Below, piece by piece: positions 36,607 to 39,221 of a DNA stretch of 64,000 nucleotides (the stretch's first letter is position 1; each line of letters opens with the position of its first letter). The position numbers and the translations under genes are program-made. The stretch lies in the NCBI GenBank assembly GCA_029248265.1, contig JAQWJQ010000224.1:1-64000 (forward strand), written 5' to 3'. The notes beneath the pieces are model-generated. The model saw only the letters and a list, made by a program, of their open reading frames with translations. It searched no databases and was not told where the DNA came from. Source of the stretch: Planctomycetota bacterium (GTDB lineage: Bacteria; Planctomycetota; UBA1135; GCA-002686595).

Positions 36607-36653
36607 GCCAGAGACGACCGCCTGCAGGTCGTGACCGGTGGCTCTTCGGGCTC

Positions 36654-36659
36654 TAGACT
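36654..36659 (+). promoter_or_regulatory. TAGACT -10 element before the selenoprotein gene
   Basis: TAGACT, CGGGGAC (7 nt), then the ATG at 36667. Suggests the Sec-containing gene has its own leaderless transcript despite following acyP closely. Confidence 0.45.
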
Positions 36660-36666
36660 CGGGGAC

Positions 36667-38211
36667 ATGAGACTCCGCGCCCCATGGTTGCTCCTCGTCG
36701 GGACCTTGCTCCAACTCGCCGCCACAGCGGCAGAGCCACAGGAGCTCAACTCCAAAAGCTGGAACACAGTGGGTGCGAGGCTCCCAGCAGTGGAACTCCC
36801 TCGGATCGACGGGCGCGGGAGCGTCGACCTCAGCACCTTACGCGGTCGGAAGCTGCTCCTGATCCACTTCGCCTCCTGGTGAGCGGGGTGCCGCAGAGAC
36901 GTGCCGGTCTGGTACGAGAGAGTGCGCCCTCTGGTCGAGGCTGGTGAGCTCCGGGTGGTTGGAATCGTGCAGGAACAGCACGCGGACCGCGCCCTGCTCT
37001 ACCAGCAGTGGCAGGAGTTGGACTTCCCGATCCTCTGGGACCCCTTCGGCGTCTGCGGGGTCACTGCGGTCCCCGATCTCACCGGCGTGGATGAGCACGG
37101 CGTCATCCGGATCGACCGGCCAGCGCCGAAGCAGTTCAAGGAGCAGTTTGTGGACGGGTTCGTGCGCCAGAGCTTCGAGGCTCCTGCAGAGGCGGCTCAT
37201 GACGCGACCGCCTTTCGGGTCAACGAGGTGGCGCGGCTCCGTGGTGGCCTCGCCCCAGCGCAGCGCGCCCTGCGAGCGGTGGCACGGCTGATGCTCGCGG
37301 GGCCAGGAGCTCGGACGATCGACGGAGAGGTCGAAGCCCTCACTTCTGCTGCCCGGTCCGGCACGGCGCAGGACCGATTTCGGGCGGGCGTAGGCCTTCG
37401 AATGCGCTTCGACGGTCCGCAGGCTCGGGCCGCTGACCTGCAGGGGTCCATCGATGCCTGGTTCTCAGCGCTCTTGGCTTCCCCGAACCAGTACATCTGG
37501 CGGCGCAGAATTCAGCAGTGGGGGCCGGCGCTGGACAAGCCGTACGCGTTCTACGACTGGGTCGAGCAAGCCCTCACCGAGGTGAGCGCCAGGGGGCAGG
37601 AGCCCGTCGAGTTACGGACCTCCCTTTCAGGAGCAGAGCGGGTCCTCGGCTCCCGGTCGATCCCTGTGCCGCGGCGTGGCCCCGTCGTCGAGCCAGATCC
37701 CGGAGCGCGCGTGGCCAGGGACCCAGGCACACTCGTCCGGTTGGAGCACGCGGTGGCGTTGAATACAGCATCGGCGGGTCCGAGGATCCGCATTCCGCGC
37801 GGGGCGCTGCGGCTTCACGTGGTGCTCCGCCCGCGGCCCGGCTCAAGTTGGCCCACGGATGCAGAGCCTCCGCGCCTCTGGCTGGAGCCGCAGGATGGCT
37901 GGATCGTATCGAGTCCGCTGGTGACCTTTGACGCACCCGGTCCCGGTGGAGAAGGGCGGCCTCTGATGGCCGACGTTGAGCTCTCCACGCCGCTCGTGAT
38001 CCCCGCACCACCTGACCCAGACGCCCCGCCTCCGTCGCCCACGGCGACCCTCCGTGGCTACGTCGTCTACTCCGTATGCGAGCCGGATGGGACCTGCGTG
38101 TTCCGCCGTCAAGAGTTGGAGGCCGTCGTGCGCTTTCCCGCTCCGCCGCCTCGCCACGGGGGCGAGCCTGACGGCGACGAGCCTGCGGGCACCGCGGACG
38201 AAGGCCGCTGA
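36667..38211 (+). CDS. Selenocysteine-containing TlpA/thioredoxin-like exported protein
   Basis: 514 residues with UGA (36880-36882) read as Sec72. ORF callers split it into 36631..36882 and 36901..38211, which are in the same frame. A signal peptide (LRAPWLLLVGTLLQLAATAA) is followed by a redoxin domain: VGARLPAVELPRIDGRG, LLLIHFASW-U-AGCRRDVPVW, VVGIVQEQHADRALLYQQW and FPILWDPFGVCGVTAVPDL. The UGA occupies the first Cys of the W-C-x-x-C motif of TlpA-like proteins, leaving Cys75 as resolving residue. After a helical middle, the last 150 residues contain PQDGWIVSSPLVTF and GYVVYSVCEPDGTC, suggestive of a DsbD-alpha-like domain. A bSECIS-like hairpin follows the UGA. Co-transcribed with DUF3187 (2-nt gap). 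The alternative, a nonsense mutation, is unlikely given the motif and hairpin. Confidence 0.9.
36900..36916 (+). promoter_or_regulatory. bSECIS-like hairpin
   Basis: CGUGCC (36900-36905) pairs with GGUACG (36911-36916), 6 bp including one G-U, with apical loop GGUCU. The stem begins 17 nt and the loop 23 nt after the UGA. The GGUCU loop matches the core of the E. coli fdhF SECIS loop and is identical to that of the SelW-like gene in this window. Confidence 0.8.
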
Positions 38212-38213
38212 GG

Positions 38214-39221
38214 ATGGGATCGGGGCGGGTGTTCTTCAGCCTGTGCACTGGCCTGATGGTGGGCTGCGCAGGGCCAACCCCCGACCCGGCCCTCCGGGTG
38301 CGAGGGCCGATCGCGGCGCGGGTCCTCCAACCAGTCGGCGTCATCTTCCCGGCGCCTCGTCCGTCGCGGGCCACCCTGCCTGAGACCGGAGAAGGGCGTT
38401 CGCTGGTCGACCTCCAGTACTCATCGATCTACGAGCGCAACTCCACCTTCACCGAGGCGGCCAGGTTCGACGGGGAGTTGGCCCGGTTGGCGGCCAACCT
38501 GCTGCTGGGGGTCGGGGACGGTGTCGCCTTCGCGATAGAGCCCAGTCTTGTCTTCGCTTCGAGCGGCTTTCTCGACGCCATGGTGGATGCCTTTCACGAG
38601 CTGACTGGACTGCCGGGTGGTGGGCGCGAGCGGTTCCCCCGGGACCAGTACTCGATGGACCTCTCGCGACGCGGAGCCACGGCGTGGTCCCTGGAGGAGG
38701 ATAGAGTGCTCTTCGGAGACCTCCCCATCACTGGGATGGCGACCGTCGTCGAGGAGGGGCCAGGCCGAGCAGGCGTCGCGGCACGGGTGACGGTCGAGCT
38801 CCCGACGGGTGACGTCTCTGGCGGCTCCGGGAGCGGTGGTTGGGACACCGCGGCGGGCGTCGTGGCCGAGAAGTCGTCTGGTCGATGGACCTTCACGGGT
38901 CATCTCGACGGCGTGTACGTGGACGCCCCGCGCGCGTTCCTCGAGGCAGGGGTCGACGTTGGCTTCCTGATGTTCGCTGGGGTCGGAGCCGAGTATCGCT
39001 GGTCCGACACCACCTCGTTGCTCCTCCAGCTGCAGTACCGCTCGTCGCTCACCGAAGACGTCGCCTTCGAGGAGATCGCGAGCGAGATCCTGGATGTGGG
39101 GGTGGGGGTGGCCCACGACCTGACCCGGGAGAGCTCCCTGGTTGTCTCGTTTCATGAGGACGCCATCGCCGCCGCGGGTCCGGACTTCACCCTCTACTTC
39201 GGGCTCTCCTTCGGGTTCTAG
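38214..39221 (+). CDS. DUF3187 outer-membrane lipoprotein
   Basis: 335 residues, 2 nt after the selenoprotein stop. Signal with a lipobox at Cys18 (GLMVGC). The DUF3187 core is recognised by SSGFLDAMVDAFHELTGLPG followed by GGRERFPRDQYSM. The rest is amphipathic beta strand (GATAWSLEEDRVLFGDLPIT, FTGHLDGVYVD, SLLLQLQYRSSL) ending in a terminal Phe (LYFGLSFGF), so it is probably a small beta-barrel. Function of the family is unknown. The tight spacing suggests a functional link to the Sec-containing redoxin. Confidence 0.85.
   Translation: MGSGRVFFSLCTGLMVGCAGPTPDPALRVRGPIAARVLQPVGVIFPAPRPSRATLPETGEGRSLVDLQYSSIYERNSTFTEAARFDGELARLAANLLLGVGDGVAFAIEPSLVFASSGFLDAMVDAFHELTGLPGGGRERFPRDQYSMDLSRRGATAWSLEEDRVLFGDLPITGMATVVEEGPGRAGVAARVTVELPTGDVSGGSGSGGWDTAAGVVAEKSSGRWTFTGHLDGVYVDAPRAFLEAGVDVGFLMFAGVGAEYRWSDTTSLLLQLQYRSSLTEDVAFEEIASEILDVGVGVAHDLTRESSLVVSFHEDAIAAAGPDFTLYFGLSFGF

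Follow-up and report, generated by a model that had tools for sequence, protein, structure and literature searches.

A predicted exported TlpA-like selenoprotein of Planctomycetota with an invariant cysteine pair in a C-terminal Ig-like domain

Main finding

A gene in the window, the whole 64,000-nucleotide stretch of DNA analysed here, is predicted to encode an exported thiol-disulfide reductase of the TlpA-like class that depends on selenocysteine (Sec) for catalysis; leaving any electron relay within the chain out of the claim, we place the probability of this reading at roughly 0.85. Its reading frame extends from the ATG at 36667 to a terminal TGA at 38209-38211, with residue 72 in the context FASW-U-AGC-R. 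The features of the locus are as follows.

36667..38211, + strand: TlpA-like selenoprotein gene, 514 residues, with TGA 36880-36882 predicted to be read through as Sec, as in the orthologues.
36667..36732, + strand: probable signal peptide, about residues 1-22 (MRLRAPWLLLVGTLLQLAATAA), recognised by eye, with a predicted N-terminal helix at residues 5-19 and hydrophobic N-termini in the homologues.
36769..37164, + strand: TlpA/ResA/DsbE-like thioredoxin domain, residues 35-166, from Pfam, Foldseek and a model with pLDDT mostly >90.
36880..36882, + strand: in-frame TGA, predicted Sec72, at the first Cys position of the active site W-U-x-x-C; TGA in 84 of 84 distinct homologues.
36889..36891, + strand: Cys75, putative resolving Cys of the UxxC motif, invariant in 84 of 84 homologues.
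36900..36916, + strand: predicted bSECIS hairpin CGUGCC-GGUCU-GGUACG, stem 36900-36905/36911-36916 and apical loop 36906-36910, from comparative pairing statistics.
37219..37596, + strand: helical, TPR-like region, residues 185-310, from the sequence profile and predicted structure.
37492-37560, + strand: nearly invariant stretch QYIWRRRIQQ.GP.LDKPY.FY.W within the helical region.
37693..38136, + strand: Ig-like beta-sandwich domain, residues 343-490 (AlphaFold2 pLDDT 91 when folded alone; Foldseek matches to Ig-like folds).
38077..38097, + strand: Cys pair C471-x5-C477, located in a beta-hairpin and a putative second redox centre; both Cys are invariant in 84 of 84 homologues.
38214..39221, + strand: DUF3187 gene (PF11383), starting 2 nt past the selenoprotein stop, a conserved neighbour in the genus and in one further locus (L064).

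The initial annotation had proposed that a UGA divides a single gene at the first Cys position of a W-C-x-x-C motif and that standard gene calling breaks it into two truncated ORFs. The coordinates, frame and length all proved exact, and the two ORFs are those at 36631-36882 and 36901-38211.

Conservation of the in-frame TGA

The source genome is a Planctomycetota MAG from the genus of strain Poly30 (4.21 Mb, 313 contigs, 83% complete). Across the 151 related genomes searched, homologues with identities of up to 73% run through the TGA, and the motif W-U-[AQ]-[GS]-C-R is present in all 30 fetched loci, that of the window included; additional stops in these loci lie at or near ORF ends, and none of them is a second Sec codon. 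Scanning named genomes gave 175 relatives, and TGA is present in all 80 that were kept, the 95 weaker ones standing outside this count. A phylum-wide search of Planctomycetota, in which the identity of the residue was not assumed, added 31 loci with a recognisable motif, each with TGA. Both searches used a profile (A2) that returned TGA forms only; since it begins past the Sec residue, the query itself did not select for U.

In total, 107 distinct homologues, the most distant at about 32% identity, have TGA at this codon, and no Cys form was found among them. Their genome titles name nine phyla, namely Planctomycetota, Verrucomicrobiota, Gemmatimonadota, Acidobacteriota, Armatimonadota, Chloroflexota, Actinomycetota, Poribacteria and Neomarinimicrobiota/Fidelibacterota; these names come from MAG titles and are reliable only as far as the binning. 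The tree of the family does not separate vertical descent from transfer. In one genome (G024), which retains SelA, the gene survives as a degenerate remnant (L158, G024:C1:816300-820300) that reads IASG-U-AGCRRSVPVWHS and then runs into stops, apparently a recent loss. Distant paralogues whose thioredoxin domain is about 25% identical, in open frames near 415 aa, also carry an in-frame TGA (G074:C58:136560-136946, G076:C2:11095-11544 and G063:C115:28924-29367) and are perhaps further selenoproteins.

Comparative evidence for a bSECIS hairpin

A hairpin of 6 bp with the 5-nt loop GGUCU, placed by the initial annotation at bSECIS distance from the UGA, was found where claimed, 20-36 nt downstream, with a loop that begins 23 nt after the UGA. 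Folding of this single sequence recovers it, but with a stability no greater than that of shuffled sequences (z-score +0.49); its energy of -7.2 kcal/mol over 17 nt, or -8.3 kcal/mol over 22 nt, is borderline for a bSECIS, and the 17-nt hairpin reaches -7.5 or lower in 71 of 107 homologues. As the stability of this one sequence is ordinary, the case for the hairpin rests on comparison.

Under a null model that keeps the amino acids and draws the codons afresh according to the usage of each gene, 384 +- 6.5 Watson-Crick stem pairs are expected across 84 distinct sequences, against 462 observed. Codon 79 in these sequences is GTG in 79, GTA in four and ATA in one, and never GTC or GTT, although the latter two make up 52% of Val codons elsewhere in the same genes. 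When the set is widened to 107 distinct sequences, the wobble base of V79 and base 1 of codon 83 form a pair in 101 of 101 cases, where 44 would be expected: mostly as G-C with His, as G-U or A-U with Tyr, as C-G with Asp (L139) and as U-A with Asn (L153). Four sequences have Leu CTG at codon 79; their codon 83 is CAG, and the pair two positions away thereby flips from G-C to C-G. Because the V79/codon 83 pairing is kept across codon changes, synonymous choice in the stem obeys a base-pairing rule, and this covariation beyond amino-acid demand is overwhelming evidence, as judged by sequence comparison, for selection of the hairpin at the RNA level. The loops are GGUCU, CGGGU, CGUGU, AGGUU and rare variants; every one of them has a G at its first or second position. 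The hairpin agrees with the published bSECIS model in its constraints on the loop G and on the distance of the loop from the UGA (PMC13188914). A search of the genome with Rfam SECIS_1 (RF00031), which is not a bacterial model, gave no match there, nor any in the controls, and therefore carries no weight.

Sec machinery and decoding of the UGA

The genome encodes a complete set of Sec machinery, comprising tRNA-Sec (70.5 bits, anticodon TCA), SelB (327 bits), SelA (455 bits) and SelD (327 bits). SelD is itself a selenoprotein, with an in-frame TGA in its N-terminal loop (TDYAACAG-U-AAK; L018, G000:C60), and selA lies about 1.4 kb upstream of selD on the same contig. In two Phycisphaerales loci (L081, L087) a selD-selB-selA cluster precedes the selenoprotein gene on the same strand; selA is upstream of it in L116 and selB in L088, and in L112 sel genes are close by on the opposite strand. 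In a sample of 392 Planctomycetota genomes SelA was detected in 39 of the 43 with the gene versus 207 of the 349 without it (Fisher p = 2e-5, with relatedness ignored). The four gene-positive genomes in which SelA went undetected (G229, G293, G397, G411) are all fragmented MAGs, and the TGA is still there. The DUF3187 protein encoded immediately downstream is a possible operon partner.

Two other accounts of the UGA need to be weighed. It could have arisen by nonsense mutation or be a misreading of TGC/TGT, as might be suspected of a single codon that divides two called ORFs in a fragmented MAG. However, a sequencing error is ruled out, since independent assemblies, among them the complete Poly30 chromosome, show TGA at this very codon in 107 distinct sequences, and the strong conservation on either side of it, along with a hairpin under selection, leaves a pseudogene or error with a negligible chance. 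A reassigned code, or plain readthrough with Trp or Cys, would likewise keep the frame open. Yet this gene and many of its neighbours terminate at TGA, the in-frame TGA is confined to the catalytic Cys position, and the full Sec machinery, the linkage to sel genes and the bSECIS-type hairpin all point elsewhere; we consider insertion of another amino acid very improbable. It is thus nearly certain, on comparative sequence grounds, that Sec is inserted at UGA 36880. The core of the initial annotation, an exported TlpA-like protein with Sec, was to be abandoned if sel genes were lacking, if homologues ended at the UGA or if the codon was an assembly error. Each of these was looked for and the opposite was found: the sel genes are present, homologues continue through the UGA, and position 72 is U in every homologue read and Cys in none.

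Domain architecture

An AlphaFold2 model built with 27 homologues (mean pLDDT 87.6, pTM 0.88) displays the three regions listed above. The thioredoxin domain has its best Pfam matches in AhpC-TSA (31.9 bits, above the cut-off) and Redoxin, and in Foldseek searches its predicted structure belongs to the TlpA/ResA/DsbE subclass of the thioredoxin fold, with a TM-score (target) of 0.80 to the DsbE structure 3gl3 and of about 0.75-0.81 to ResA. W71, U72 and C75 are invariant, and in the putative V-P cis-proline loop V135 is conserved in 98% and P136 in 94%. In the predicted structure strands 459-471 and 477-489 make up the beta-hairpin that C471 and C477 cap; these two Cys and the U72/C75 pair are the only invariant redox residues of the family. 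Based on the N-terminal sequence, a location in the cell envelope is very likely. A search of PDB sequences with the C-terminal domain gave no match. The long C-terminal region, which had been singled out as unusual, is indeed present, but the whole family conserves it, its own invariant Cys pair included, and it is not a peculiarity of one genome.

Relationship to catalogued families

With TlpA, ResA and DsbE (CcmG) the protein shares its fold, the position of its active site and an apparent export signal; it differs from them in that Sec replaces the first Cys and the chain is longer by about 340 residues, which hold two additional conserved regions. None of the NCBIfam models (June 2026) matches it above the cut-off. 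The model NF041054 (ResA-like WAxxUGC motif-containing protein, WAxxUGC_long) likewise describes a long chain with a ResA-like thioredoxin domain and Sec in the motif, and all 27 family members scanned match it (E = 8.6e-16 for the window protein, 2.2e-23 at best). However, the match covers the thioredoxin domain only (profile positions 81-206 of 354), leaving the helical and Ig-like regions unmatched. Membership in NF041054 is ruled out by a score of 58.2 bits against a cut-off of 300, and by the motif, which is U-A-G-C here and UGC there.

The catalogue of prokaryotic selenoprotein families runs to more than 110, and several of these have UxxC in a redoxin or TlpA-like domain (PMC13188914). 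Table 1 of that study has three such entries, a Redoxin family protein (PF08534), a Prx-like thiol:disulfide oxidoreductase (PF00578) and a thiol-disulfide isomerase-like protein (cd02966), which share the domain class and the U-x-x-C motif with the present family and whose architecture is not described there. Compared by description only, a member of the family may already be catalogued there as a generic 'Redoxin family protein' (HEU0032618.1, PMC13188914; the other UxxC entry under this name is MBA3499694.1). Unknown_3 (PMC2398784) also fuses a UxxC redoxin-type domain to another Cys-containing domain; it has three conserved Cys including a CxxC, whereas our protein has C471-x5-C477 and no CxxC. 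Literature searches on the motif or on the Planctomycetota selenoproteome returned nothing relevant. Since selenoproteins with a UxxC TlpA/redoxin domain are, as such, a kind already known and NCBIfam has no model above the cut-off, novelty is limited to the Sec-only family and its architecture, both of which appear uncatalogued.

The Ig-like domain and the DsbD homologue

The Ig-like domain is reminiscent of the N-terminal (alpha) domain of DsbD (nDsbD), whose Cys pair has an established redox role. Its predicted fold class and Cys placement fit those of nDsbD, an Ig-like beta-sandwich with C-x5-C on a beta-hairpin, and the spacing of C471 and C477 equals that of C103-x5-C109 in E. coli nDsbD, the sequence of which was checked. 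The two differ in that the domain is C-terminal in the selenoprotein, which is without the DsbD transmembrane domain. Foldseek retrieved nDsbD/ScsB structures at E of about 0.01-0.02 and TM-scores of about 0.25-0.4, along with many unrelated Ig-like folds. The Pfam profile DsbD_N (PF11412) scores 12.9 bits on the selenoprotein, below the gathering cut-off of 25, and reaches E <= 0.1 in three of 58 family members; in a genome-wide search its sole signal, a weak one of 12.1 bits, falls on the Ig-like domain. Profile comparisons with E. coli nDsbD, with the N-terminal domain of the genome's own DsbD and with profiles that relatives supplied for the two N-terminal domains of that DsbD align the Cys loop alone at best, at probabilities of about 0.3-2%. 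As profile methods give no support for homology, which is not established, we say that the domain may work like nDsbD rather than that it is one.

A single DsbD-type transmembrane protein is encoded in the genome, and it too is a predicted selenoprotein. In its thioredoxin domain an in-frame TGA takes the place of the first Cys (FTGHT-U-VVC-RKME; L172, G000:C244, locus positions 1054-1056, - strand) and is followed by a stable hairpin containing GGUCU; at this position the DsbD loci of relatives have Sec in 21 cases and Cys in four. Its N-terminal half contains two domains with C-x4-C.

Proposed function and alternatives

We propose that SelB and Sec-tRNA-Sec would decode UGA 36880 as Sec, directed by the hairpin at 36900-36916, and that the exported protein would reduce disulfides or oxidised thiols in the cell envelope with Sec72 as the nucleophile. 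It would cycle through a Sec72-Cys75 selenenylsulfide resolved by Cys75, an established chemistry of the thioredoxin fold. A Sec-dependent peroxidase of the peroxiredoxin type is a minor contender: the best Pfam matches are AhpC-TSA and Redoxin, and Sec peroxidases exist (PMC13188914), but a W-U-x-x-C active site that includes a resolving Cys is the arrangement of TlpA/ResA, whereas Prx has TxxC/U, and the closest structural matches are DsbE, ResA and TlpA.

Given such a reductase, the role of C471 and C477 may be read in two ways. They may hand electrons to the Sec72-Cys75 pair of the same chain, forming a second, DsbD-alpha-like redox centre, a suggestion drawn by analogy that we hold at somewhat below even odds. 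Slightly favoured over this, though itself short of an even chance, is a stand-alone reductase in which the two form a structural disulfide and the Ig-like and helical regions bind a substrate or partner; this is consistent with the lack of profile support for DsbD-alpha homology and with the breadth of the Foldseek matches. Against a purely structural disulfide stand the invariance of the pair, which together with the UxxC pair makes up the whole invariant redox set, its nDsbD-like spacing and position on a beta-hairpin, and the fall of the genome's sole DsbD_N signal, however weak, on this very domain. For the proposed reductase, the source of reducing power may, as a tentative guess, be the Sec-containing DsbD homologue of the same genome. 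The conjunction of all these elements, that is a widespread, strictly Sec-dependent family hidden from gene callers, in which a Sec-thioredoxin and a DsbD-alpha-like Cys pair would form an intramolecular relay fed in Planctomycetota by Sec-DsbD, is unlikely as a whole.

Implications

Standard calling splits the gene at the stop codon, and it is likely to be absent or truncated in many MAG proteomes of Planctomycetota, Verrucomicrobiota, Gemmatimonadota and Acidobacteriota, a situation that a curated family model would correct. The covarying hairpin provides a clean comparative data set on bSECIS structure in little-studied phyla. For the majority of selenoprotein families Cys homologues exist, but none was found among 107 distinct homologues of this one, while DsbD occurs with either residue among the organism's relatives; the family is thereby a natural system in which to ask what Sec can do and Cys cannot. 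If the proposed link to DsbD is true, these bacteria would possess an electron path in the cell envelope that uses selenium at two successive steps.
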